Shown here piece by piece: positions 12,920 to 62,000 of a stretch of DNA of 64,000 nucleotides. Made by a program: the position numbers and the translations under genes. The stretch spans positions 372,001 to 436,000 of the forward strand of contig JBAIAA010000700.1 in assembly GCA_037893245.1 (NCBI GenBank), written 5' to 3'. The notes beneath the pieces are model-generated. The model was not told where the DNA came from. It did not search any database and was given only the letters and a program-made list of their open reading frames with translations. This stretch comes from Crossaster papposus (lineage: Eukaryota > Echinodermata > Asteroidea > Velatida > Solasteridae). Numbering within the stretch: position 1 is the first letter of the stretch; each line of letters starts with the position of its first letter.

Positions 12920-14353
12920 GTTAGAGGTGGGAGGAAAACCCCAGAAGAATATCCTGGGGAAAAACCCACGGAGTCGGGCAGGGAAGGAAAGTTTTCCTGA
13001 GAGTTTTAAGGCCTTCTTTTTTGTTGAGAATAGCTTGCTGACATTCGTCGTTCCACCAAGAGGAAGGAGGTTTGGGGTGGTTGGGATTGGTTTTAGGGAT
13101 AGAAAAAGTCATAGCAGTATCAATTTGGCAAAGGAAGTTGTCATACATTTTGTCGACAGGGGGCCGACTCATTAGGTTTAGTAATATATTGGTTACAGGC
13201 GTCCTCGAATTTGTTCCAGTCGGCTTTTTTATAGAACCATTTTGGGCTATTTCTGTATGAGTTTTTCTGAATAGGGTGGTTGACATCGATAATTATAGGA
13301 CAATGGTCGCTTCCCCATGTATCATTAAGAACTTTCCAGTTACATTTGGCAGCTATGTTAGGCGTAACGAAGGTGATCAATACAGGAGAGTGTACCATGT
13401 GCCGTGTCAACTCTTGTGCCCTCACCAGAGTTTACACAGACCATGTCAGTATCAATAATCACATCTTCGATGATCTTGCCATTATGGTCGAGTTTTGAAC
13501 TACCCCACAAGGGGTTATGACCATTGAGGTCACCACACACTATACAAGAATGATCAGTTTTATCAATGATATCTTTAAGAGTTTTGGTGTCTAGAAAATT
13601 ACATGGGTTGTAAAAATTTATAATAGTGATTTTATTTTTCTGTGTATTATAGAGTTCCCCAATTTGATATTCAACAGAGTTATTATCACCTAGGGTATAT
13701 TTGAAAGCAATGTCTCGTTTGACCAAGAAAGCGCATCCTCCACCCTTACTTTTAGGATCGTTTTTATTTCTGTCATGTCTATGTTATAGCCAGGAAAAGT
13801 AAATTGTTTGGTTTTTTTTAGCCATGTTTCCTGTATTCAGATGACATCTGGTTTTTCTTTCCAAGTGTTAATGCAGTTTTTAAATTCTTTTCCATGAGCT
13901 AACAAAGACTGGGCGTTCCATTGTAGGATAAGAATCATTATGAAAATGAGAGTCATGTTTGATGTGTTTTTGGATTTTCTTGACGTTTTTTGGCTATTTG
14001 CTAGTGAGTCTGTGTTTTCTTGGGTAGAGGGTGTTTTGTCCATCTTTTGGGATGATTTATGGTCGGTGTTTCCTTGCTTTGTATTTGCTGGTGGTTGAGA
14101 AGACTTTCTTGATTTTCCTTGTTTAGTTGTTGGTGTTGGCTGAGAACAAGTTGGGTGGGTGATGTAATTGACGAGAGTCTTCACTGCCGAAATTCTTTCT
14201 TCTTTATTTTTGATTGTTTCCCAAATCTGCATTGTACCAGTGAGGAGTTCGGTCAGGCGTTGTTCACTGCAAATACATTGAGTGTGTTCAGTTTGTGTTT
14301 ATGCTGTTTTTTCTGTTTGAGTGGTAGCGTCTTTGGTGGTGGGATCCGTCTCC
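12920..14353 (-). mobile_element. Degenerate non-LTR retrotransposon (I/Jockey-like) endonuclease region
   Basis: On the minus strand a Lys/Ser/Thr/Gln-rich segment (14355-13950) leads into the APE endonuclease start ILQWNAQSLLAHGKEF, then IQETWLK after an in-frame TGA. After a one-base frameshift come GGGCAFLVKRD, INFYNP, the hallmark GDLNGHNPLWGSSKLDHNG, CIDH, and TWGSDHCPII near 13310. It ends with a WWNDECQQA stretch at about 13040-13070, so the reverse transcriptase is missing. GDxN..HxxWGS and SDHxPI are classic APE endonuclease motifs of I and Jockey clades. The segment is absent from the C/D spacer. Confidence 0.8.
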
Positions 14354-19691: not shown

Positions 19692-22600
19692 AGAACGAAA
19701 ACAAAAGCTGTTTCGGTGAAAAACCGAAACAGCTAAAAACAAATACCCAAAGAAAAGAAATACCAAAAAGAAAAAAACACATTTAGACAGTAGAGTAGAC
19801 CTAAGACAGTAATGACGTCAAGCTTTGTTTACATGCGAGCTTTCCTATTGGAGCCAAGTGGGGACAATTCGGGCGATTCACAATGCAGTGCGCCACCAAG
19901 ACGACGTAAAAAGACGTAAAAACTGATGAGTTCATGCAAAATGAATACAGTTTTTCAAACTGATGCCGACTTTTTCCCAATATGCACTGCGGGTATAGCA
20001 GGATTTGCGCCTCCAACGGCAGCTTCCAGGTATTGTGAATCGCTCGAATTTATTGTGCTTGCAAGAGTTGCCTTTCTTTTCTATAATGAGGGCGCTATAA
20101 ACTGAAAGTTTGCTAAAATGAATAACTGAACGTGCTAGGCCCAAAACTGTGGGAACCAAAAGCCTGTGTGATGAAAAATGTCTGGTGGTTGATAGGATTA
20201 AGCGATTTTCCCCCATAGAAACCTTCACAGTGTTTGTAATAACCGGAAATTCGTTTTGTCCTATTTCGTAATAACTGGAGTAGACTGTACATTGAATATT
20301 ATCTATTAATAATGGTCGATTTATAGAGCTAGGAATATTCTGAACTAAAGCTAACAATAATCTATCTTGAATCTACTACATGTTGTACATTGTATACGCA
20401 TGCACCGCACACGTACATTTTGGTTAAGTTTAGCATAGGAATTTACCTTTTTCAAATGAATAGAAAGAATTGGGTCTGTGGCTGAAAAGAAAGTCGTTGC
20501 CACAATGAGAGCCATTAAGGCCATCCAAATGGCCGGTATACTCAAAAGTTGGGTGATTGAACCAGATGACTCGTTATTCCTTGTTCCTGATAAAAAACAA
20601 CACCAAGACCATTTAGTTTACACATACAAACAATAACAATGTTGTTTATTAAAGCAGTGTTATGGACACATTTGTATTTCTTGCAATGATCTTTAATGAA
20701 CTTGTGTATATGTTCTAAAGGTGGCGTCGCTTAAGCGCCCTTCTTGTTTAAATTTCGGCCGATTCAAGATCTCACTACAAGGACACGTAAATGTATTACA
20801 AGGGCAAGGTGTCTTCGTACTCGTTTTTAAGTTCGTAGATTTGAAGAGAAGCCATTCGATCAAAACGGAACTCACCCTGCACTTCAGGCAATAAGAAGAA
20901 ATTTAAGATATCGATTAATATAGCAAATCCTCCTAAAGTGAAGAACGGAATCCCAAAGCCGCCAGCCTGTCAACGAAAAAAATATAATGGCTCTGATGCT
21001 AGGAGTCCACTGGGCCGCGCCAGTTGGCGCCAGTTTGCGCCAATGCAATTTGCTGTGGCGCCTAGTGTCGCCAATAAGGTGCCTAGTGGCGTGTAGTGGC
21101 TCAAACTGCCTCCCAACTAGCTCGTGGTGGCCCGTAACGGCACCAAATTTGAATGTGGCGGCAAGAAAATTTCAAAATGTTTGAAATTTTCGTCGCGCCA
21201 CTTGCATCGAGCAATCAGCGCCAAGTGTCCGCCAAGTGGCACCAAATGGCGCGAACATATCGCCCTTTGGCGCAAACAATCCGCCTATTGGAATCCACTG
21301 GAATGTAATGGCGCGCGCCAAGTTGCGCCATATTTAGTAGAGATGTTGTTCATACATGCTAGGAGTCCACTGGGCCAGCGCCAGTTGGTGCCAGTTCGCG
21401 CCAAAGATTATGTGATTGGCGCGTAGTGGCTCGCTGTGGCGCCGAATTAATGTCCGCTCGGCATGTGTCGCCAAGTGGAATAAACTGGGTGCCATATGGC
21501 GTGCGCCAAATGCCACCCGGCTTACTCCAAAATGTTGCGCCAGTTTGCGCCAGTTCGCGCCATTACACGGCCATTTGATTCCAAAATTCACCCTGTTGGC
21601 GCCATTCGCGCCAATAGACGGCTACTTTGCGCCACTTGGTGATTAGTTTGTGCCAAAGGTCGCCAAATTGGTTTGAACTTGCCGCCGCTTGGCGCTACTT
21701 GCCGACTATATAAATACCGGCCATCGGCTACCTGGTTCAGACCCTCCTCAGCTGCTTTTATAGGCGGCAAGTAGCGCCGAATGGCGGGCAACCAGGTGGC
21801 ATTTGGCGCGAAGTAGTCACCAATCGGGTGCCGTTTGGCTCGCGCCACTGCATATTTGGCGCGCTTTGGCGGGCTATCCGCCTCTGTTGGAATTATTTGG
21901 CGCGCGCCATTACATTCCAGTGGATTCCAATAGGCGGATTGTTTGCGCCAAAGGGCGATATGTTCGCGCCATTTGGTGCCACTTGGCGGACACTTGGCGC
22001 TGATTGCTCGATGCAAGTGGCGCGACAAAAATTTCAAACATTTTGAAATTTTCTTGCCGCCACATTCAAATTTGGTGCCGTTACGGGCCACCACGAGCCA
22101 GTTGGGAGGCAGTTTGAGCCACTACACGCCACTAGGCACCTTATTGGCGACACTAGGCGCCACAGCAAATTGCATTGGCGCAAACTGGCACCAACTGGCG
22201 CTGGCCCAGTGGACTCCTAGCAACAGCAGCTGAGGAGGGTCTGAACCAGGTAGCCGATGGCCGGCAAGTAGCGCCAAGCGGCGGCAAGTTCAAACCAATT
22301 TGGCGACCTTTGGCACAAACTAATCACCAAGTGGCGCAAAGTAGCCGTCTATTGGCGCGAATGGCGCCAACAGGGTGAATTTTGGAATCAAATGGCCGTG
22401 TAATGGCGCGAACTGGCGCAAACTGGCGCAACATTTTGGAGCAAGCCGGGTGGCATTTGGCGCACGCCATATGGCACCCAGTTTATTCCACTTGGCGACA
22501 CATGCCGAGCGGACATTAATTCGGCGCCACAGCGAGCCACTACGCGCCAATCACATAATCTTTGGCGCGAACTGGCACCAACTGGCGCGGCCCAGTGGAC

Positions 22601-24862
22601 TCCTAGCATGAGATAACGTTTTAACCCTGCGAGCTGCCAGATTTCAGTAGGCACATTTTATTATTTTTCTAACTTCCATTATGAAGCCGTCAGCCTATTC
22701 CATTCAAATTGTATGTATTCCGCAATGACACATTGTAGTTTGAAGCGGTATAGTCGCTTTTCAAGAAGAAGTTCACCAGGGGTCACTCCAGTCATGAGAA
22801 ACCTAGGCCCCAGCGAAAAACCCATTCAGTTGTGCACAAAATGGGCTCCAGACTATTGAAGGAGGCTTTTTAGACTCTTGGTGGCAGCAGACACACTCTT
22901 TTCTTTCCTATTGTTCAAGTCATTGCGAACATTACTATTAACATGATAATGTTATGGTAATGAAAACAACTGATGTCCTCCCAGTACAATGCCCCACCAG
23001 TTTAAACATATTGCCTCCGTTTTAATAACAAATTGTGCTTCGTTCCGCTTTGTATTTTGTACTTGCATTATACAGCAGACCGCCGATTGCTGGCCCGATT
23101 GCAGACGACAATCCTCCTGTCATCTCGATTAAACTCTGTTTACAAACAAATAAAATAATAATTATTCAGTGATCTTTCATTGATCTAACACAAACACTGA
23201 TCCAACACTGTTTACTCATAATTGTTAACACTAATCCCCGGCTACTGTGTGACCTGACACGTCACACCTCGATCACACCAACACAACATGTAGCTTTACC
23301 ACGCACTCGTGGACATTCCTTGTGTATTCGTGTAGTTAACAAACTTTGACTAAATACTCATTTTTCTCGCTTCCCCAAAACAAATTTACCCTCAAATGTA
23401 GGATTATGGGCCTCTCAGCTGTCCCTTCTATCTTTCTATATATAACCCTAGACCCGTTTTTCCTCTAGCGCTCTTTTTCGGAAACTGAAAAACGGATTGT
23501 GGACGTGTGCAAGTCCACACACCGATAACCTCTTCCCGCATCGTGTGGACCTATATTGTTCGGAGGTCCACAGTGCGTATGCAAGACTAACTCACCAATA
23601 TCACACCTTGTGTTAATAATTTATAGCACCGACCTAAAACATGTAACGCGCCTAATATCCACCGTTTGTTTTCACACTTACAATAAAGGTAGAATACACT
23701 AATTCTTTTACTACTGAATTATTAATAAATACCTTACTTTTTTGAAAGTAAATAATGAATCTAGGCATCCAGTTAGTGCCTGTGCTAAATAGTCCTGTAA
23801 TTGATCCGAAAAAAAATTATAAAACAAATTCACAATCGCCGAACGGCGATCCCGAAAAAAACCAAGAACAACTGCCCGAAGCCGGTTGGAAACCGAACGC
23901 CGCGTTTTTCTTTATTTTTTTTCTCGGCATCTACGATTGTAAAACTTAAGGCAGGTCTGTTAAACGATATTTACTATTAAATTACAACCCCCCCCTTAAA
24001 TTCACCAATTTCAAGCAATCACAAATGGTGTATCCTACCTTTAAATTCACCCATTCCTGATAATTCAAACAATCACAAATAGTGTTATCCCTACCTTTAA
24101 ATTCCCCCCTTCCTGATAATTTCAAGCAATCACAAATGGCTGTATCCTACATTAAGAATGACAGGTTATTAACCAACAATCGATACATCGGCCTCGCAAC
24201 CAATATTACACATCAATATTACATCTGCATCACCAGGACGTTTATTATTGTTGGCAAGTCCCACACCCACACATACAGGCACAAATACCAATCATATTTA
24301 GAAGATTTACCATTGCCGTTCCGACTCGTGTCGGGAAAGTTCAAACGTCACAATGGCCGCGGGATGAAGTCATTACAGCCGAGCTGCCTAGCCCCTCTAA
24401 GGTCCTTAAGGCGAAACTGAACCCAATGAAAGTTGCTTTGGTTGGCATCTGATTTAATAAACCTGCAATAGATGATCGACCAGAGTTAGTCGAACTACAG
24501 TTAATATAGTTCTTGATCAAACTGCCCATGTTTTACTTTTCGAAATGTGAAGTAACGGATTGTTGGGCTCGCAAACGCCATAATGTTTATTGTTAAAGGG
24601 GTATTCTTCATGCCTGAATTTTTGAATTTTTGTACAAGTTTGGATTAGTTTTCTTTGTATATACATACAGAGCCATAATTCTCCCTGAAGAAGGTGCATT
24701 CGCACCGAAAGCTCGGTTTTATTTATATTTATATTTTCACATTTTGCTATACCATCCTATATATATTTTTTTTATAATTTTTTTTATTAATTTTTTTTAT
24801 TAATTTTTTTTTTTTTTTTTTTTTAATCTTTTTTTTTTTGGGGGGGGGGGTAGGGGGGGGGT

Positions 24863-31585: not shown

Positions 31586-34259
31586 TCACACTTTACTTGA
31601 AATAAGCAGCTTCCGTTCCTCGTCAGTAGCCTTTATCTCCAGCCGAGACCTCGGGATCCGTCTCCTGCAAGGTCAAGGATTATGAATCATGACATTGTAA
31701 CCCGTTTTACACCTTTATACGCCCGGTTTTTCTCTCGTTGTACAACACGCGTACGTTTATGAATGGAGTTTACCTGCGACTTTATTCAACAGTCGTAGGC
31801 GACTTTAAACTTAACTTCTGACATAACCAGGGCACTTTGAACCAAGACATATAAAACCCTTGATACGTAAAATATACTAGGCATGATGAGACACGGCGAC
31901 TTTGGCTTCATAAAATATAGCTTTATAGGTAGTTTTTTTAATTGATCCTAGTTTACTAAATCAGGACTCAAGTTTTATTTAATTTGACTTACCCTAACCC
32001 GCACCGATATTCCCAGACTCCAAATAGGCACAACAGGATCACAAACAAGATTAAAATACCGGCGAGGATTGTAGTGGCGTATGCAAATCCATAGGCCTCA
32101 GTTAGAGCGCTCCCAAGCGAGGGCCCTATCACAGTCCTGTTTAGAGATAGAACAAAGTGTATTTGAAAGGAAAAGGTGCAATATAGGTCATCAGCCTCAG
32201 TCCAAACAATTGGGCGACCGTTATCAAAATGATTGAGTAATACTCATAAATACTCGGCTAAACCGATGATATTGATGTTGGCTAACCATTTTTGTTACAT
32301 CAAAACCTGCCCATTACAAAAATCACCCCTACATGATCTTGATTCCCATGACGTTCTAGTTTTCCTAATTTTACATTAATTTCATGGAAACCCCCCCCCC
32401 CCGGGATTTCCCAAGACCGTGGGAACCAATCGACTTACGTACCCGACTCCAAACCCGCCGTTATAAAGGCCAGCAATTGCGGACGTCAACACAATGTCGT
32501 TGGGAATACCATACCATCTGTTGAAGTAAATTGAATAAACTAGTGATGTGCCAAAGTTAATCCTGGGTGCCAAATGTAATCCTGGGTGCCAAAGGTAATC
32601 CTGGGTGCCAAAGGTAATCCTGGGTGCCAAAGGTAATCCTGGGTGCCAAAGGTAATCCTGGGTGCCAAAGGTAATCCTGGGTGCCAAAGGTAATCCTGGG
32701 TGCCAAAGGTAATCCTGGGTTCCAAAGGTAATCCCCGGGTGCCAAAGTTAATCCCCCGGGTGCCAAAGTTAAATCCCGGGTGCCAAAGTTAAATCCCGGG
32801 TGCCAAAATTAATGCTAAAGTTACCCCATTTTACGGTAATCCCTATTGTCCGATAACAGTGTAAGTCCCCATTTCTACACGACTTACTCTGCTGAGCTGA
32901 ACATGTCGACTAACGTTGGAATAGCCATCAGACCGATCGCTATAACACCAATTGGTACAGCCACACTGGGGATTAACTTGGTCCTGTCGAAGGAAAAAAC
33001 ACACAAAAATCAATAAAATAATAATAATAATAACGAGCGTCATTCTATACCTCCGAATAGGCACTTGGGGAGACAATCCCATAGAGATGTACACAAACTT
33101 AAATAAAACAGTCCTAAAACTTGTTTACCCTAACCCTTTTCTCCAAGATCTTCGAGATTTATGCTATAAAAGTATAATATTTAGACCAAAATCGGCCGTT
33201 CTAAGACAAAAATAACTCCCAAATGTCTCCCTAAGTGCCACTGTCTCTATACATGTACTCCATGCGGAAACATTTGGGGGGCTGTACAAAGTGTTCGCGT
33301 TTTGCGAACGTTATTTTGTGCATTGGTCCTGTGTGTAATTTGTGTAACACACGTCTGTGTATCGTACATTGAATGAAAACGACAGGGAAAACGTATGCGT
33401 ACTTCGTCGTGTCCGATGTAAACAACGAGATTTTTTTTTCGTCTAAAACATAAGGTTGGTGAATTCCTTTCAACAAGAAGTTTGAATTAGTTTAGGTAAA
33501 CAATTTCTTGAACGGTAATGCCACTTTAATAACACTTACGAGGCTATATTCAGCAGTGGCGACGGTCCCAAAAATAGGAAGAAAACTGCGATGCCAAACG
33601 TTCCCAAGACGATCATAATTCGTGTGGCTTTCTGGTGAAACCCAACAATTTAACTGTTGTTAGTACCCGAACAAAACTTGATCATGTCAGGCGTCAGTTA
33701 TTTTGTTATCAACCTCGGTCTCAGGATGTTTTTTTTTATTAAAGTATTTTCAAGTTGGTATGATTATTTATAACTAGGCCTATTCTTCATTTATTGCATT
33801 ATTGGGCCCATAGTTTGCTAATTTGTGGTTCAACGTACCAACCGGCAATAATAAAGGTATATTTCTTGCCATTTCTTTTTTGGCAATTTAAATCCAGGGT
33901 TTGTAAAGTTTCACACATGGCGCCACTATCAAAAGGAAACGAGCCATGGTTTGTTTGTTAAACCCCAGCTTCGTCCTCGTCTCAGACTTCAATCGGAGAC
34001 GGATCAGAAGCCAAATCTATAGTTGTTCAGAAAACGGCCCAGGAGCTCACTCACGTTGCCCACTCACGTTGGCCATCTAACTATGCAAACAATTTCCCAA
34101 TAGTCGTGCAAACAAAGTTAGCGAAGTTTGCATTGTTCGCGTGAGTAAAACGCACCGCAATGATAACATCAAGGGGAGGATCAATGGTCTAGGGTCACGA
34201 GTTTAGTTGCATATTTTAACAGGGTAATTAAACACAAGCCCATATATATTATATATTAG

Positions 34260-34293
<34 letters not shown>

Positions 34294-37200
34294 TTGACGT
34301 ACCTTTGCGTCTGCAACAGCTCCCAGGAGTACGGAGAAAAACGCGTACGTTAAGCCCATACCGAGAAAGACCAAACTTATCTGTATCACAGTAAAGCCAA
34401 GCTGTAAAAGAAAATGGTGGAAAAAACAAATACATTGTATCCCCAAAAACACACATTTAGACAGAGTAGACCTAAGACAGTAATGACGTCAAGCTTTGTT
34501 TACATGCGAGCTTTCCTATGGGAGCCAAGTGGGGACAATTATTTCGTCGAACTTATAAACCCGGACGAAACCTCTCACCACTCGGAGAAGACTATGATAA
34601 CATTTAACTTGCACAGTTTGGCCGGGACCAAGGATATGTGTTTGTAATAACCAGAATTTCGTTCTGTCCTATTTCGTAATATTAAATATAATCCATTAAT
34701 AATGGTCGATTTATAGAGCCAGGAATATTTGTTGAACTACAGCTAACTAATCTATCTTGAATCTAACGCTACTATTGTAATTGTATACGCATGCACCGCA
34801 CACGTACATTATGATTAAGGTTAGCATAGGAACTTACGTCTATCAAATGAATAGAAAGAAGTGGGTCAAGACATGAAAAGCAAGAGGCTGCCAAAACGAG
34901 AGCCATAAAGGCCACCCAAATGGCCGGTATACTCAAAAGTTTGGCGAGTGGACCAGATGACTCGTTATTCCTTGTTCCTGATAAAAAACAACACCAAGAC
35001 CATTTAGTTTACACATACAAACAATAACAATGTTGTTTATTAAAGCAGTGTTATGGACACATTTGCTTTTCTGGCAATGATCTTTATTGCACTGGTGTAT
35101 ATGTTCTAAAAGTGGCGTCGCTTAAGCGCCCTCCTCAGGCTTCGTTCAAATTGTGGCCAATTCAAGATCTCATTACATGTACACGTAAATGTATTACAAG
35201 GGCAAGGTGTCTTCGTACTCGTTTTTTTTAAAAACAAGTTCGTAGATTTAACGGAAGCCATTCGATCATATAACGGAACTCACCCTGCACATCAGGCAAT
35301 AAGAAGAAATTTAAGATATCAATTGATAAAACAAGTCCTCCTAAAGTGAAGAACGGAATCCCAAAGCCACCAGCCTGTCAAATAAAAAATCAGATTGCTC
35401 TAAGATAACGTTTTAACCCTGCGAGCTGCCATGAGGAGATTTATGTAGGCACATTTTTTCTTTTTCTAACTTCCATATGAAGCCGTCGGCCTAATCCATT
35501 CAAATTGTATGTATTCCTCAATGACACACTGTAGTTTGAAGTGGTATAGCCGCTTTTCAAAAAGGAGTTCACTAGGGGTCACTTAAGTAATGTGAAACCT
35601 GGGCCCTAGCAAACAAAAACATTCAGTTGTGCACAAAATGGGTCCCATTCAGTTGTGCACAAAATTGGCTCTTTGTGTTTTGCTGTTTTGCAGGGGTGTC
35701 ATAAATCATCCTATACTGCTGGCATTGTGACAGCATACAAACCACAAATGTATATAATTATACAACTGAACAGATATTATATTTCTTGATGAAATTGAAG
35801 GAATTTCGCGTTGACAATAGGTTTTAACTCTCTGTTATCAGTCCCTGTTTGTAATTGCAGGTCGGTCGCGCATTGTTTATTTTGGTCGACTTGCGAGTAA
35901 TGAGAAACCTGGGCCCTAGCAAACAAAAACATTCAGTTGTGCACAAAATTGGCTCTTTGTGTTTTGCTGTTTTGCAGGGGTGTCATAAATCATCCTATAC
36001 TGCTGGCCTTGTGACAGCATACAAACCACAAATGTATATAATTATACAACTGAACAGATATTATATTTCTTGATGAAATTGAAGGAATTTCGCGTTGACA
36101 ATAGGTTTTAACTCTCTGTTATCAGTCCCTGTTTGTAATTGCAGGTCGGTCGCGCATTGTTTATTTTGGTCGACTTGCGAGTAATGAGAAACCTGGGCCC
36201 TAGCAAACAAAAACATTCAGTTGTGCACAAAATTGGCTCTTTGTGTTTTGCTGTTTTGCAGGGGTGTCATAAATCATCCTATACTGCTGGCCTTGTGACA
36301 GCATACAAACCACAAATGTATATAATTATACAACTGAACAGATATTATATTTCTTGATGAAATTGAAGGAATTTCGCGTTGACAATAGGTTTTAACTCTC
36401 TGTTATCAGTCCCTGTTTGTAATTGCAGGTCGGTCGCGCACTGTTTATTTTGGTCGACTTGCGAGCTGTTCGATAAACTTTGACGGAGGCATTTCTTTGC
36501 CTTTGTTGTTGTTCCTTTTAATGCTTCTAGTTTTAGGCTGGCTTGCGAGTGACTTGCGAGTGACTTGCGAGTGACTTGCGAGTGACTCGCGAGTGACTCG
36601 CGAGTGACTCGCGAGTGACTCGCGAGTGACTCGCGAGTGACTCGCGAGTGACTCGCGAGTGACTCGCGAGTCACTCGCGAGTCACTCGCGAGTCACTCGC
36701 GAGTCACTCGCGAGTCACTCGCGAGTCACTCGCGAGTCACTCGCGAGTCACTCGCGAGTCACTCGCGAGTCACTCGCGAGTCACTCGCGAGTCACTCGAT
36801 TGCAGCTCTGGCATTGGATGCTGTGTATATTGTATTATGATCTCATTCTGTTTCTAGTGATCGTATTTTATGTATTTTATTCATTTCAAACATTACTATT
36901 AACATGATAATGTTAAGGTAATAAAACAAAACTTTTTCACTTGGCTCTTTGTGTTTTGCTGTTTTGCAGGGGTGTCATAAATCATCCTATACTGCTGGCC
37001 TTGTGACAGCATACAAACCACAAATGTATATAATTATACAACTGAACAGATATTATATTTCTTGATGAAATTGAAGGAATTTCGCGTTGACAATAGGTTT
37101 TAACTCTCTGTTATCAGTCCCTGTTTGTAATTGCAGGTCGGTCGCGCATTGTTTATTTTGGTCGACTTGCGAGTAATGAGAAACCTGGGCCCTAGCAAAC

Positions 37201-43323: not shown

Positions 43324-46300
43324 TCACGCTTCACTTGAAATAAGCAGCTTCCGTTCCTCGTCAGTAGCCTTCATCTTCAGCCGCGACCTCGGGATCCGTC
43401 TCCTGCAAGGTCAAGGATTTTGGATCATGACATTGTAACCCGTTTTACACCTTTATACGCCCAGTGTTTTCTCGTTGTACCACTGTCTCGCGATAATATT
43501 GTACAACACGCGTACGTTTATGAATGGAGTTTACCTGGGCTTTATTCAACAGTCGCAGGCGACTTTAAACTTAACTTCTGGCATAACCAGGGCGCGTTGA
43601 TTGAACCAAGACGTATAAAACCCTTGATACGTAAAATACACCCGACATGAGACACGGCGACTTTGGCTTCATTAAATATAGCTTTATTGGTAGTTTTTTT
43701 TTATTGATCCTATAGTTTACTAAATCAGGACTCAAGTTTTATTCAATTTGACTCACCCTAACCCGCACTGATATTCCCAGACTCCAAATAGGCACAACAG
43801 GATCATAAACAAGATTAAAATACCGGCGAAAATTGTAGTGGCGTATGCAAATCCAAAGGCCTCAGTTAGAGCGCTCCCAAGCGAGGGCCCTAACACAGTC
43901 CTGTTTAGAGTAAAAACAAAGTGTATTTGAAAGGAAAAGGTGCAATATAGGTCATCAGCCTCAGTCAAAACAATTTGGCGACCGTTATCAAAATGATTGA
44001 GTAATACTCATAAATACTCGGCTAAACCGATGATATTATGATGTTGGCTAACCATTTTTGTTAATTAATTAATTAATACCCTTTACTGTTATCACATCAA
44101 AACCGGCCCATTACAAAAATAACCCCTACATGATCTTGATTCCCATGACGTTCTAGTTTTCCTAATTTTTACATTAATTTCATGGAAACTCCCCCCCCCC
44201 AGGATTTTCCATGACCGTTAGAACCAATCGACTTACGTACCCGACTCCAATCCCGCCGTTAAATATGCCAGCAATTGCGGACGTCAACACAATGTCGTTG
44301 GGAATACCATACCATCTGTTGAAGTAAATTGAATAAACTAGTGATGTACCTCAATGAGGCGTATCCATGAATGCTTTAGGAGTTTTTTCCCCTAATTTTT
44401 CTGGGTTTATCCTCAATGTAGCGCCTTTTTACGCATTTTTCTGAAACAAAATCAAATTGTCTTTAAAATATAAGTTGTCTTAACAATAAAATACTGTAAA
44501 ACGGGGTAACTTTGGTCAGATCGATTTTATAAGTAAATTTGCGTGAGATGTATGAAATATCAAATCTAGTTTGATATTTATTTGTAAAACCATAAAATAT
44601 AAATTATCGGAATGTAGTTCCGAAGTTAATCCTGGGTGCCAAGTTAATCCTGGGTGCCAAAGTTAATCCTGGGTGCCAAAGTTAATCCTGGGTGCCAAAG
44701 TTAATCCTGGGTGCCAAAGTTAATCCTGGGTGCCAAAGTTAATCCTGGGTGCCAAAGTTAATCCTGGGTGCCAAAGTTAATCCTGGGTGCCAAAGTTAAT
44801 CCTGGGTGCCAAAGTTAATCCTGGGTGCCAAAGTTAATCCTGGGTGCCAAAGTTAATCCTGGGTGCCAAAGTTAATCCTGGGTGCCAAAGTTAATCCTGG
44901 GTGCCAAAGTTAATCCTGGGTGCCAAAGGTAATCCCCGGGTGCCAAAGTTAATCCCCCAAAGTTGAAAACGGGGTAACTTTGGTCAGATCGATTTTATGA
45001 GTAAATTTGCATGAGATGTATGGAATATATATCACATCAAATCTAGTTTGGTATTTATTTGTTAATGTAAAAGTAAAACCAGAAAATATAAATTATCGGA
45101 ATGTAGTTAATCCCGGGTGCCATACTTAAATCCCGGGTGCCATACTTAAATCCCGGGTGCCATACTTAAATCCCGGGTGCCATACTTAAATCCCGGGTGC
45201 CATACTTAAATCCCGGGTGCCATACTTAAATCCCGGGTGCCATACTTAAATCCCGGGTGCCATACTTAAATCCCGGGTGCCATACTTAAATCCCGGGTGC
45301 CATACTTAAATCCCGGGTGCCATACTTAAATCCCGGGTGCCATACTTAAATCCCGGGTGCCATACTTAAATCCCGGGTGCCAAAGTTAACCCCCTGGGAG
45401 CCAAAGTTAATCCCTTGTGGGCTAAAGTTACCCCATTTTACAGTAATTCCTATTGTCCGATAACAGTGTTCGCACTGGACTTAAAATGATAAAACATACC
45501 TAGACGATGGGTCCTTTTCCCATTTTAAGTCATTATAATGACAGCTTGGCTACTTCTCCCACGGTCTCGGTAAAATTTTCCCGTGTCGAAAGTCCAAGTG
45601 CGAACAGTGGTAACATTTGACCATTTTTTTTTTACCATCGTCTCAGTAAAACCTTCCAAAAAAAACCAGTGCGAACACGGCTTTAAGTCACTATTTCTAC
45701 ACGACTTACTCTGCTGAGCTGAACATGTCGACTAACGTTGGAATAGCCATCAGACCGATCGCTATTGCACCAAGTGGTACAGCCACACTGGGGATTAACG
45801 AAGGACAAAAACACACAAAAATCAATAAAATAATAATAATAATAACGAGCGTCATTCTATTACCTCCAAATAGGCACTTGGGGAGACAATCCCATAGAGA
45901 TGTACACAAACTTAAAACAGTCCTAACTTGTTTACCCTAACCCTTTTCTCTAAGATCTTCGAGATTTATGCTATTTATACCAAAATCTGTTCTAAGACAA
46001 AAATAACTCCCAAATGTCTCCCTAAGTGCCACTGTCTCTATACATGTACTCCATGCGGAAACTTTGTGGGGGCTGTACAAAGTGTTCGCGTTTTGCGAAC
46101 GTTATTTTGTGCATTGGTCCTGTGTGTAATTTGTGTAACACACGTCTGTGTATCGTACATTGAATGAAAACGACAGGGAAAACGTATGCGTACTTCGTCG
46201 TGTCCGATGTAAACAACGAGAGTTTTTTTTCGTCTAAAACATAAGGTTGGTGAATTCCTTTCAACAAGATGTTTGAAATAGTTTAAGTAAACAATTTCTT

Positions 46301-49803: not shown

Positions 49804-52800
49804 GCGACGAATACAATATATCAGCCTGCTTCGCACGGCTGATATAATTAAAGCAGTGTTATGGACACATTTGCATTTCTTGCAATGATCTTTATTGCAC
49901 TGGTGTATATGTTCAAAAGGTGGCGTCGCTTAAGCGCCCTCCTCAGTCTTTGTTCAAATTGTGGCCAATTCAAGTTCTCATTACAATGTACACGTAAATG
50001 TATTACAAGGGCAAGGTGTCTTCGTACTCGTTAAAAAAAAAAAAGTTGGTAGCTTTAACGGAAGCCATTCGATCATAACGGAACTCACCCTGCACATCAG
50101 GCAATAAGAAGAAATTTAAGATATCAATTGATAAAACAAGTCCTCCTAAAGTGAAGAACGGAATCCCAAAGCCACCAGCCTGTCAAATAAAAAATCAGAT
50201 TGCTCTAAGATAACGTTTTAACCCTGCGAGCTGCCATGAGGAGATTTAGGCAGGCACATTTTTTCTTTTTCTAACTTCCATATTAAGCCGTCGGCCTATT
50301 CCATTCAAATTGTTTGTATTCCTCAATGACACATTGCAGTAGTTTAAAGTGGTATAGCCGCTTTTCAAAAAGGAGTTCACTAGGGGTCACTCAAGTAATG
50401 AGAAACCTGGGCCCCAGCGAAAAACCCATTCAGTTGTGCACAAAATGGGCCCCATTCAGTTGTTCACAAAATTGGCTCTTTGTGTTTTGCCGCCGAGACG
50501 CCTGGCTGTCAATCTGGCCGGCCAGTGAATTGTTTTTTCTCCAAACGACATCGCCATAGAACTGGTTTTTAACGCCTCTGATTGGCCATCTGTTACGTCA
50601 TGGTAGTAAATTGTACTCTCAATTTATTAACCCTAGGATTCTCAACTTATTGACCCTAGGACTCTGGGTTTCAATGACTCTAGGACTCTCAACTTATTGA
50701 CCCTAATCCTAACCCTAACCCTTTTTGACCCTAGGACTCTGGGCTTTTGTTACCCTAGTACACGTCGTGCAATGCGACACATGGATGAATGGATGACCTA
50801 TAAGTTAAACAACCAATCAGATGCGCTAAAAAACAGTTCTATGGCGATGTCGTTTGGGGAAAAAAAATTCGCCACCCGCCCAACCAGCCTTTCAAGAAGG
50901 AATTTCGCGTTGACAATAGCTAGGTTTTAACTCTCTGTTATCAGTCCTTGTTAATTGTTTATTTTGGTCGACTTGCGAGGTGTTTGATAAACTTTGACGG
51001 ATGCATTCATTTGCCTTTGTTGTTGTTGTTGTTGTTGTTCCTTTTAATGCTTCTAGGCTGGCTTGCGAGTGGCTTGCGAGTGGCTTGCGAGTGGCTTGCG
51101 AGTGGCTTGCGAGTGGCTTGCGAGTGGCTTGCGAGTGGCTTGCGAGTGGCTTGCGAGTGGCTTGCGAGTGGCTTGCGAGTGGCTTGCGAGTGGCTTGCGA
51201 GTGGCTTGCGAGTGGCTTGCGAGTGGCTTGCGAGTGGCTTGCGAGTGGCTTGCGAGTGGCTTGCGAGTGGCTTGCGAGTGGCTTGCGAGTGGCTTGCGAG
51301 TGGCTTGCGAGTGGCTTGCGAGTGGCTTGCGAGTGGCTTGCGAGTGGCTTGCGAGTGGCTTGCGAGTGGCTTGCGAGTGGCTTGCGAGTGGCTTGCGAGT
51401 GGCTTGCGAGTGGCTTGCGAGTGGCTTGCGAGTGGCTTGCGAGTGGCTTGCGAGTGGCTTGCGAGTGGCTTGCGAGTGGCTTGCGAGTGGCTTGCGAGTG
51501 GCTTGCGAGTGGCTTGCGAGTGGCTTGCGAGTGGCTTGCGAGTGGCTTGCGAGTGGCTTGCGAGTGGCTTGCGAGTGGCTTGCGAGTGGCTCGATTGCAG
51601 CTCTGGCATTGGATGCTGTGTATATTGTATTACATGATCTCATTCTGTTTCTAGTGATCGTAGTTTATGTAATTTATTAATTTCAAACATTACTATTAAC
51701 ATGATAATGTTATGGTAATAAAGAAAAACATTTTCACTGATGTCCTCCCATTACAATGCCCCACCAGTTTAATAATATTGCCTCCGTTTTTATAACAAAA
51801 TGTGCTTCGTTCCGCTTTGTATTTTGTACTTGCATTATACAGCAGACCACCAATTGCTGGCCCGACGGCAAACGACAATCCTCCTGTCATCTCGATTAAA
51901 CTCTGTTTACAAACAAATAAAATAATAATTGATCACAAATAAAATAATAATTAATCAGTGATCTTTCACCGATCTAACACAAACACTGATATAACACTGC
52001 TTACTCATAATTGTTAACACTAATCCCCGGCTATTGTATGATCTGACACGTCACAAAAACGTCACACGACTTTTTTGGAAAGTCGTGAATATTGACGTCA
52101 AATTTGACGTGGATATTCGCGATCTGCGGAGTCCCTTCAGGGCCACCATGTATGCGTTTTCATGTGTAGTACGTCATCCCTTTTGCTGGTTTACAAGTCC
52201 GCTGGTACTATATCGTGGATTTCATTGTGGTTTTCAGTGGATCTTTGCCGGGAACCAGTACAGGGCGGGAAATTTCAAAATCGAAGAATCGAGGTCTAAT
52301 TTTTTCGGTCAAATTGCAACAAAATTATTTAGAGAAAAACATGACCGTAACAATAAAGTGTTACCTGAACACAACATAAACATGGTCCGATAGTAAAATT
52401 TAATGTGCGAGTTTTCGTTGTAGTCCATCTTTAATAATTTATACACCGACCTAAAACATGTAACGCGCCTAATATCACCGTTGTTTTCACACTCGCACAT
52501 TAAAGGTAGAATACACTAATTATTTTACTACCGAACTATTACAGGCACAAATACCAATCATAATTAGAAGATTTACCATTGCCGTTCCGACGTTATCGGG
52601 AAAGTTCAACGTCACAATGGCCGCGGACGAAGTCGTTATAGCCGAGGTGCCTATCCCCTCTAAGATCCTCAAGGCGAAACTGAACCCAATGAAAGTTGCT
52701 TTGGTTGGCATCTGATTAATAAACCTGCAATAGATGATCGACCAGAGTTAGTCGAACTACAGTTAATATAGTTCTTGATTGATCGAACTTGCCCATGTTT

Positions 52801-59099: not shown

Positions 59100-62000
59100 T
59101 CACACATCGCTTGAAATAAGCAGCTTCCGTTCCTCGTCAGTAGCCTTTATCTCCAGCCGCGACCTCGGGATCCGTCTCCTGCAAGGTCAAAGATTTTAGA
59201 TCATGACATTGTAACTCGTTTTACACCTTATACGTCCGTTTTTTTCTCTCGCTGTACCACTGTCTCGCGATAATTAGGTTTCGTACACGAACAGATACGC
59301 GTACGCGTACGTTTAGCTATCCGTACGCGTTTTATATTCACGTGCAGCGAGCGAGATATCCGTGCCTTGTACACGGTTAGCGGATAGTGAAGAGCTGTGA
59401 CGTCATATGTTTACACAAATTGATGACGTATCCGTTAAGCTAACAGTACCCGTTCGCAGGCGAAACCTCTCTAACATTGTACAACACGCGTATGTTTATG
59501 AATGGAGTTTACCCACTGACCTCTACACCTGGACGGACCATTGTCCATATTCTGCTGTGCTAACGCTGGAAGTCAGCGCGAACTGGAAGTGCGACATGGC
59601 GGACCCACGACGTCACTTCTGTGAGCCAATTAAATGTACAGGTGTACGGGTCAGTGGATTTACTCTGTACATTTTGTATGTATAAACATTATGTCATACG
59701 TACCGTACCCACTGAACTCTACACCTGGACATTTCATTGGCTCACAGAGGTCCGCCATGTTGTACTTCCAGTTCGCGCCGACTTCAAGTGTGAAACAATG
59801 ATGATCTGTCCATGTGTAGAGGTCAGTGAGTTTACCTGGGCTTTATTCAACAGTCATAGGCGACTTTAATTTCTGGCATAACCAGGGCGCTTTGAACCAA
59901 GACGTATAAAACCCTTGATATGTGAAATACACCCGACATAATGGGACACGGCGACTTTGGCTTTATTAAAAATAGCTATATAGGTCGTTTTTAATTGATC
60001 CTAGTTTACTAAATCCTGTTCCAAAACTTCAAATGGAACATGATAATTCATTCGTTCAATACAGACTTGGATTTGTCTTAATCAACCAATCAGGACTCAA
60101 GTTTTATTCAATTTGACTTACCCTAACCCGCACCGATATTCCCAGACTCCAAATAGGCACATCAGAATCATGAACAAGATTAAAATACCGGCGAAGATTG
60201 TAGTGGAATATGCAAATCCAAAGGCCTCAGTTAGAGCGCTCGCAAGCGAGGGCCCTATCACAGTCCTGTTTAGAGATAGAACAAAGTGTATTTGAAAGGA
60301 AAAGGTGCAATATAGGTTATCAGTCTTAGTCAAAACAATTGGGCGACCGTTATGAAAATGATTGAGTAATACTCATAAATACTTGGCTAAACCGATGGTA
60401 TTATGATGTTGACTAACCATTTTGTTAGCTTTCGAAAAAAAGTTAATTAATTAATACCCTTTATTCTGTTATCACATCAAAACCGGCCCATTACAAAAAT
60501 AACCCCTGCATGATCTTGATTCCCATGACGTTCTAGTTTTCCTAATTTTACATTAATTCTATGACAACCCCCCCCCTCCCCCCCCCCCCCCCTCCCTCCC
60601 CCCTACCCCCCCCCCCCCCCTCCCTCCCCCCTACCTCCCCCCCTCCCCCTCCCCCCTCCCCCTACCTCCTCCCCCCCCTACCTCCCCCCCTCCCCCCCTC
60701 CCCCCCCCTCAGGATTTTATATGACTGTGGGAACCAATCGACTTACGTACCCGACGCCAAACCCGCCGTGAAATATGCCAGCAATTGCGGACGTCAACAC
60801 AATGTCGTTGGGAATACCATACCATCTGTTGAAGTAAATTGAATATACTAGTGATGTACCTCAATAAGGCGTATCCATGAATGCTTTAGGAGTTTTTACC
60901 CTCATTTTTGCGGGTTCATCCTCAATGTAGCGCCTTTTTACGCATTTTTCTGAAACAAAATCAAATTGTCTTTAAAATATAAGTTGTCTTAAAAATAAAA
61001 TACTGTAAAACGGGGTAACTTTGGTCAGATCGATTTGATGAGTAAATTTGTGTGAGATGTATGAAATATCACATCAAATCTAGTTTGATATTTATTTGTT
61101 AATGCAAAAGTAAAACCATAAAATATAAATTATTGGAATGTAGTTCCGAAGTTAATCCTGGGTGCCAAAGTTAATCCTGGGTTCGAAAGTTAATCCTGGG
61201 TGCCAAAGTTAATCCTGGGTGCCAAAGTTAACCCTGGGTGCCAAAGGTAATCCTGGGTGCCAAAGTTAATCCTGGGTGCCAAAGTTAATCCTGGGTGCCA
61301 AAGTTAATCCTGGGTGCCAAAGTTAATCCTGAGTGCCAAAGTTAATCCTGGGTGCCAAAGTTAATCCTGGGTGCCAAAGTTAACCCTGGGTGCCAAAGTT
61401 AATCCTGGGTGCCAAAGGTAATTTTTGGTGTGAAAGTTAATCCTGGGTACCAAAGTTAAATCCTCGGTGCCAAAGTTGAATCAAGGGTGCCAAAGTTAAA
61501 TCCCGGGTGCCAAAGTTAAATCCCGGGTGCCAAAGTTAAATCCCGGGTGCCAAAGTTAAATTCCGGGTGCCAAAGTTAATCCCCAGGTGCCAAAGTTAAT
61601 CTCCGGGTGCCAAAGTTACCACCCCCCCCCCCCCCCCCTCTGGTGCCAAAGTTAACCTTCCGGGGGCCAAAGTTAATCTTCCGGGGGCCAAAGTTAATTT
61701 TCCGGGGGCCAAAGTTAATCTTCCGGGGGCCAAAGTTACCCCATTTTACAGTAATTCCTATTGTCCGATAACAATGCAAGTCCCCATTTCTACACGGCTT
61801 ACTCTGCTGAGCTGAACATGTCGACTAACGTTGGAATAGCCATCAGACTGATCGCTATGATACCAAGTGGTACAGCCACAATGGGGATTAACTTGGTCCT
61901 GTCGAAAAAACACACACAAATCAATAATAATAATAACGAGCGTCATTCCGTATTCTCCATACATGTACTCCATGCGGAAATATGTGGGGGCGAAAACAGA

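Follow-up and report, generated by a model that had tools for sequence, protein, structure and literature searches.

A nested composite DNA transposon in Crossaster papposus from a family whose TNA target-site copies agree only by chance

We analysed a 64,000-nucleotide stretch of the Crossaster papposus genome (contig JBAIAA010000700.1 of assembly GCA_037893245.1, positions 372,001 to 436,000 of the forward strand), referred to below as the window. Judged from its copies elsewhere in the genome, the segment 20997-22608 is a composite non-autonomous DNA transposon that has spread as a unit: an inner element of 866 bp is inserted in inverted orientation into a relative of roughly 760 bp (A-core-B'), where it duplicated the trinucleotide ACA. 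Most outer insertions of the family are flanked on both sides by TNA, and between the two sides the middle base agrees at chance level, so the copies are not faithful duplicates. We regard as probable a reading in which the nested composite descends from a PIF/Harbinger-like parent, its ends carry phased arrays for the element's own protein(s), and its insertion footprints include tails from the donor site.

The terminus TGCTAGGAGTCCACTGGGCC occurs in the window in exactly four exact copies (20997+, 21357+, 22203-, 22589-), and 100 shuffled windows contained none, with up to three mismatches allowed. Arm A (21012-21321) pairs with A' (21897-22206) at 98% identity and arm B (21373-21709) with B' (22257-22593) at 99%; about 48 bp of the termini are common to both ends. 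The composite has a G+C content of 55% vs 38-39% in the adjoining kilobases. A preliminary description of this DNA had proposed four termini, two each way, interleaved arms in the order A-B-A'-B', the limits 20997-22608 and the involvement of two related mobile elements. All of this is borne out: the limits are exact, and both single forms as well as the composite are present in the genome. The features are listed below in window coordinates, with the basis of each assignment; L numbers designate genomic loci.

20994..20996, no strand: outer left TNA (TGA); from the sequence, two tandem paralogues in the window having a single TAA here
20997..21356, + strand: arm A of the outer (host) element, terminus at 20997-21016; arm pairing, terminus search and module map
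21354..21356, no strand: ACA, left copy of the inner 3-bp duplication; the uninterrupted host reads CATACAGCAG in L022, L027 and L032
21357..22222, + strand: inner element E, 866 bp, consisting of arm B, core and arm A', inverted in the outer element and alone in L014 (866 bp); module map and junctions
21357..21759, + strand: arm B of the inner element, a GGCGC array followed by the TATA box and leader of the putative transposase-side gene; sequence and module map
21707..21716, + strand: TATATAAATA, promoter-like box of the putative transposase-side gene, absent from B'; in L051 a transposase-like open frame follows it
21755..21762, - strand: TATAAAAG, promoter-like box of the Myb-like-side gene, facing the TATATAAATA box; precedes an ATG in L028, L049, L051 and L052
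21760..21896, + strand: core of the inner element, corresponding to the upstream region of the Myb-like-side gene; module map and L028
21897..22222, - strand: arm A' of the inner element, terminus at 22203-22222; arm pairing, terminus search and module map
22223..22225, no strand: ACA, right copy of the inner 3-bp duplication; comparison with the uninterrupted host element
22223..22608, - strand: arm B' of the outer element, without the TATA stretch present in B, terminus at 22589-22608; arm pairing, terminus search and module map
22609..22611, no strand: outer right TNA (TGA); sequence and the empty paralogues in the window
35195..35604, + strand: tandem paralogue (about 86% identical) that lacks the outer insertion and shows its empty site; flank alignment across the insertion point
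50004..50412, + strand: second empty paralogue, about 85% identical; flank alignment across the insertion point

The genome searched comprises 1.02 Gb in 1841 contigs, including the window, and contains 533 exact copies of the 20-base terminus (267 on the + and 266 on the - strand). Among 100 listed terminus places the spacings +360, +846, -401, - and their reverse recur, thus the four-terminus form is not unique to the window. Mapping of 40 fetched regions with the window's arms as modules revealed three recurrent forms: A-core-B' of about 760 bp (e.g., two copies in L022, and L027), the 866-bp B-core-A' (by itself in L014, and the inner element in the window) and the composite A-B-core-A'-B'. 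The remaining family copies are longer or truncated versions, and L013 is close in size to the 760-bp element with a different core. In the single elements A and B are unlike sequences that have their ends and motif texture in common. At the nesting site the uninterrupted 760-bp element reads GTTCATACAGCAGCTG in L022, L027 and L032; the window has GTTCATACA, then the 866-bp element, then ACAGCAGCTG, which amounts to a perfect 3-bp duplication of ACA. It had been argued that simple nesting cannot produce the interleaved order, but because A and B differ, inverted nesting yields it directly, and the empty host element together with the perfect ACA duplication contradicts the argument. Asymmetric ends make inverted nesting resemble an impossible interleaved palindrome, and the nesting result corrects this tempting misreading. 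The genome-wide terminus search and reconstruction of single elements that the preliminary description had proposed thus recovered both the uninterrupted host and the lone inner element.

Ten composites (window, L010, L016, L018, L019, L024, L025, L046, L047 and L048) were compared and are 98.4-99.9% identical. The left inner junction is common to all ten, with one extra base in the terminus of L046, and the right one to seven; the other three (L019, L047 and L048, a subgroup with 99.6-99.9% identity) have lost the eight bases ACAGCAGC at this junction. Since the composites sit at different places with different flanks and have the left inner junction in common, a single nesting event followed by transposition of the composite as a unit is indicated. 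L024 contains a further A' arm besides its composite. As in other non-autonomous, many-copy elements, the ends, present as 533 termini, are common with a longer coding relative: L051 has both ends and gene fragments.

The longer copies have the same two ends as the elements; on the inner edge of either end stands a TATA box, from which a gene fragment reads towards the interior. By this layout the arms correspond to the sequences upstream of two convergent parental genes. On the A side of L028, TATAAAAG is followed by a leader and then by ATG CCC CCA AAA GGC AAG AAA GGC AAG, and a search of the genome with a 153-base A-side piece gave 36 matches, of which 12 extend to the start codon. L051 is a 2.3-kb copy with both promoter sides, whose left terminus lies in L053 and whose right terminus is damaged at the last base; it was the sole match of the gene fragments in tblastn searches of the fetched loci. 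Its Myb-like side carries an MPPKGKKG.. frame of 115 residues up to a splice-like GT, and a further exon-like stretch beyond gives a weak match to MADF_DNA_bdg (Myb/SANT-like; E 0.043, 14.6 bits, below the Pfam cut-off of 22). A PDB search with the Myb-like fragment gave nothing meaningful. On the B side the leader that follows TATATAAATA includes the core of the 760-bp element; after it comes an open frame, KRKHNWWFRPMLHPQLRAERGQYHTLMEELRENDRSKFKNYTRVSPEMFDDLL..., which by eye resembles the start of a Harbinger-type transposase. Passages of PMC9710019 describe PIF elements as having two genes, for a transposase and a Myb/SANT/MADF protein, and typically a 3-bp duplication. The two gene fragments and the duplication found here fit that description, and the parent was likely, though not proven to be, PIF/Harbinger-like, with the transposase gene on the B side and the Myb/SANT/MADF-like gene on the A side.

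Two other loci were rejected as the parent. L037 is a 760-bp-type element into which a near-perfect palindrome of 1.2 kb (96%; L037 1792-2961) is inserted, and the interior of L038 partly matches other repeats and holds no such genes. Adjoining the L051 copy, L053 1-3471 is by eye, from its open frames, part of a Gypsy-type long terminal repeat (LTR) retrotransposon.

Target-site duplications (TSDs) are a signature of transposition and are assumed to be faithful copies. We compiled 55 terminus pairs, 35 from the window and 33 of the 40 fetched regions, 18 further ones and two in L052; no usable pair was present in the other seven regions (L031-L034, L039, L042 and L045). The pairs were sampled in contig order from the terminus lists regardless of their flanks, with the exception of L052, which came from the promoter search; the count excludes L049, which records the L028 event again, and L051, whose end is damaged. 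TNA stands on both sides in 42 of the 55 pairs and in 40 after dropping L036 and L044, which repeat the event of L043: one insertion that was multiplied passively with its host repeat and is present at several places. The 13 other pairs comprise L014 and L052b (ACA/ACA), C87:2813968 (ATA/TAA), C121:847910 (ATA/TGT) and nine with at least one inner junction of a composite. Thus 40 of the 44 readable outer events have TNA on both sides. Within these 40 pairs the middle bases are equal in 13, and 11.0 would be expected if they were unrelated (P 0.28). A second family of miniature inverted-repeat transposable elements (MITEs) with GGGCCAATTTCACGGAGC ends served as control; its three copies, too few to conclude from, read CAG/CAG and CTG/CTG, both matched, and CTG/TAG in one diverged copy. 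They lie at L012 1524-1764, L024 1046-1294 and L031 2459-2702, one of them inside arm B of a family member.

The clear empty sites (window, L015, L017, L019, L027, the L043 group and L028/L049) hold one TNA, so that insertion gains one TNA, i.e. 3 bp as in PIF/Harbinger elements, with middle bases that are not faithful. In the L043 group the insertion has TTA on the left and TGA on the right, and five empty copies carry one TTA (95-96% identical; 97-98% vs L036). L028/L049, as read in L049, is flanked by TCA and TTA; one empty copy has TTA (96%) with one further base missing beside it, and the four spanning matches of L028 itself were poor and not used. For L015 (TCA and TTA) the empty copies are consistent with TCA (82% and 87%), and a third at 69% is unclear. 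These three are the mismatched events for which an empty site could be used, and in each of them the target is matched by exactly one side. In L017, L019 and L027 the two TNA copies match, and the empty site holds one TNA of that kind; one of the three L017 matches is poor, and L019 is a composite within a tandem array of about 185 bp whose other units supply several empty sites. The empty-site matches of L022 and L041 are matches to self, and an 84% match of L012 with four bases missing is unclear.

These footprints might be explained by the fate of the excised ends. Yeast assays with mPing, a PIF/Pong-driven MITE, led to the inference that the TSD remains as 5' overhangs upon excision, and altering its middle base had a small effect (passages of PMC4561436, Gilbert and others). 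By analogy, both ends of an element excised here would keep a 3-nt 5' tail (TNA) from the old site. Where the target is itself TNA, the tail's T and A would pair across the 3-nt gap; if the tail were ligated and not trimmed, each junction would be a heteroduplex at the middle base, and after replication the two middle bases of a new copy would stem one from the target and one from the donor. Such a mixture in every daughter predicts agreement by chance, as observed. At a target such as ACA the tail would fit badly and might be trimmed, giving a perfect duplication. That a eukaryotic cut-and-paste family routinely ligates donor-derived 5' TNA tails, keeping one base of its previous address, while tails unable to pair at an ACA target may be trimmed, is proposed here tentatively and with slightly more doubt than confidence. 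If true, a family with one systematically foreign TSD copy would show what becomes of excised DNA ends, each copy would keep a one-base record of its previous site, and such a family would escape tools that require identical duplications. Among the papers listed in literature searches, some of them aimed at mismatched or carried-over TSDs, we recognised no report of a chance-level TSD mismatch in a natural PIF/Harbinger family.

Several observations weigh against the combination of nested composite, PIF/Harbinger-like parent, own-protein arrays and donor-tail footprints. No donor middle base was followed back to the copy it came from. Both outer middle bases in the window are G and both empty paralogues (87-88% identical), each with a single TAA, have A, hence neither side equals the presumed target; the simple tail model would not predict this unless G was already present at the target or the donor base served twice in repair. 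The five non-TNA events comprise three perfect ACA/ACA duplications (the nested element E, L014 and L052b), which were classed as ACA because both sides read ACA so that their support is weakened, and two unmatched pairs (ATA/TAA and ATA/TGT). From an mPing donor flanked by TCA, 45 of 46 insertions were in TTA/TAA (passages of PMC4561436); tail retention is therefore not general in the superfamily, and the family described here would differ in its handling of the tails. The N-terminal-like transposase-side fragment of L051 had no Pfam match up to E 5 and no meaningful PDB match, and neither a DDE domain nor a complete transposase was seen among the copies read, the stretch read in L051 not extending to the catalytic domain.

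Instead of a DDE transposase, a tyrosine or serine recombinase acting site-specifically through a circular intermediate might have produced the footprints, as in Tn916-type elements, whose coupling sequences carry bases from the previous site into the flanks. A coupling sequence would leave each insertion with one middle base from the target and one foreign one, and no DDE domain was seen among the copies read. We nevertheless consider this unlikely: a PIF/Harbinger identity agrees with the inverted termini, the 3-bp duplication, the subterminal arrays, the pair of convergent gene fragments and the weak MADF match, and an overlap of 3 bp is short for tyrosine recombinases. Very unlikely in our view is that the mismatches reflect ordinary decay of perfect duplications or recombination between copies. 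The two ATA pairs depart from TNA and may be decayed or rearranged, but the middle base differs in 27 of the 40 pairs, which were selected for a first base T and a last base A (of the 46 pairs other than inner junctions, 42 qualify); decay of faithful duplications is ruled out as the cause because the ten composites are about 99% identical, and exchange between copies would not leave both flanks matching one paralogous empty site. A 2-bp AT duplication at a palindromic TNATNA target, with both middle bases belonging to the target, would account for TNA on both sides with unrelated middle bases, but is scarcely credible since the clear empty sites, paralogous ones included, hold a single TNA and the inner insertion is a perfect ACA duplication.

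Three arrangements of family members were noted besides. In L038 (3865-3907) two family termini abut with one TTA between them in common, as if one element had targeted the footprint of the other. Two family members lie exactly 51 bp apart in both L022 (2259-2309) and L052 (1108-1158) with different intervening sequences, perhaps by chance. L052 (C225:564225-567374) has two family elements, and the flank of one resembles by eye a Polinton/Maverick-type DNA polymerase.

The subterminal regions of the family are rich in GGCGC motifs. In the composite TTTGGCGC occurs nine times (six on the + and three on the - strand; mean 0.33 and maximum 3 in 500 shuffles) and TGGCG 66 times vs 8.4 when shuffled. 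These counts include each arm twice, and non-redundant ends were therefore assembled from the A side of L028 (537 bp) and the B side of the window (361 bp). In these, TTTGGCGC occurs six times vs 0.30 (maximum 3) and TGGCG 40 times vs 5.1 (maximum 14) in 1000 shuffles. The nine or more TTTGGCGC copies on both strands and the dense GGCGC and TTGGCG motifs of the preliminary description are thus confirmed, far above the shuffled controls it had suggested. The spacing of the sites is phased with a best period of 10.5 bp. Among motif pairs at most 45 bp apart, 29 of 73 fall near multiples of 10.3 bp, vs 11.3 (maximum 24) in 2000 random placements; the power at 9.8-11 bp is less extreme and is matched by 1% of random placements. 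The unit of the array is roughly TGGCGCnAAc, about 10 bp long and helically phased.

The motifs had also been read as E2F sites, which would couple transposition to S phase. The sixfold presence of TTTGGCGC in the non-redundant ends and their position upstream of TATA boxes agree with this idea. However, in the bases preceding TGGCG, A is favoured at -2 (21/40) and -3 (20/40) and not TTT; thus the E2F octamer TTTGGCGC looks like a minor by-product of the array. It accounts for six of the 32 TGGCGC sites, and column frequencies predict about five. Together with the helical phasing this count, about that of the TGGCGC unit, led us to reject E2F as the organising motif, and a cell-cycle role of the sites appears quite unlikely. 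The better of the two ideas put forward earlier is that the motifs are sites for transposition proteins, which can be retained in the form of predicted sites by analogy with Harbinger3_DR, a PIF/Harbinger element whose Myb-like protein binds a 9-bp subterminal motif (passages of PMC9710019). Given this precedent and the phased array in both subterminal regions, the GGCGC-rich ends likely represent phased arrays of predicted binding sites for the element's own DNA-binding protein(s).

Among known systems, PIF/Harbinger elements (Harbinger3_DR, Ping/Pong/mPing) are the closest in having a 3-bp duplication (mostly TNA here), short terminal inverted repeats with a subterminal repeated motif, deletion derivatives and two genes, of which fragments were found here, one with the weak Myb/SANT/MADF match. 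In mPing any middle base of the TSD is tolerated with small effect, and excision would leave a TSD-derived 5' overhang (passages of PMC4561436). The present family differs in that the TNA middle bases agree only by chance, in ends of 340-400 bp or more of helically phased units of about 10 bp, and in the DDE domain not being seen in the copies read. Tourist-like MITEs (mPing, mJing) are likewise short, non-autonomous and numerous, with ends common to a longer parent, and the TSDs of mJing are mostly TAA/TTA with a share changed (passages of PMC6850418). Unlike these, the present family has two unlike subterminal ends with inward promoter-like boxes at both, and inverted nesting made a four-terminus composite that was itself multiplied. 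The long inverted repeats of the composite, with their small subrepeats, recall Foldback (FB) elements, whose long inverted repeats are built of small subrepeats. The single elements have no long foldback, as A and B differ, and long pairing arises only via nesting; a classification as a Foldback element was rejected because L013, L014 and L022 are A-core-B' or B-core-A' with unlike arms. The likeness to Tn916-type elements would lie in flanks that carry bases of the previous site; only one base differs here, within TNA, and the element otherwise resembles a cut-and-paste transposon.

Many segments of the window are present three or four times with spacings of about 12-23 kb, which corresponds to a tandem gene family. 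By flank alignment, the composite occupies one of several tandem gene copies; the flanks align across the insertion point with two element-free copies, which is direct evidence of an insertion into one member of the gene family. The family resembles a membrane transporter by eye, and three fragments had no Pfam match at E 0.01. On the - strand, a fragment of endonuclease/reverse-transcriptase type (Exo_endo_phos_2, E 2.2e-13) lies at 13361-13783 and probably belongs to a non-LTR retrotransposon. Tandem arrays of 11-bp, 19-bp and 20-bp units are located at 32421-32872, 36440-36879, 44489-45494, 50927-51322 and on, and 61016-61684, each array being present in more than one tandem gene copy.

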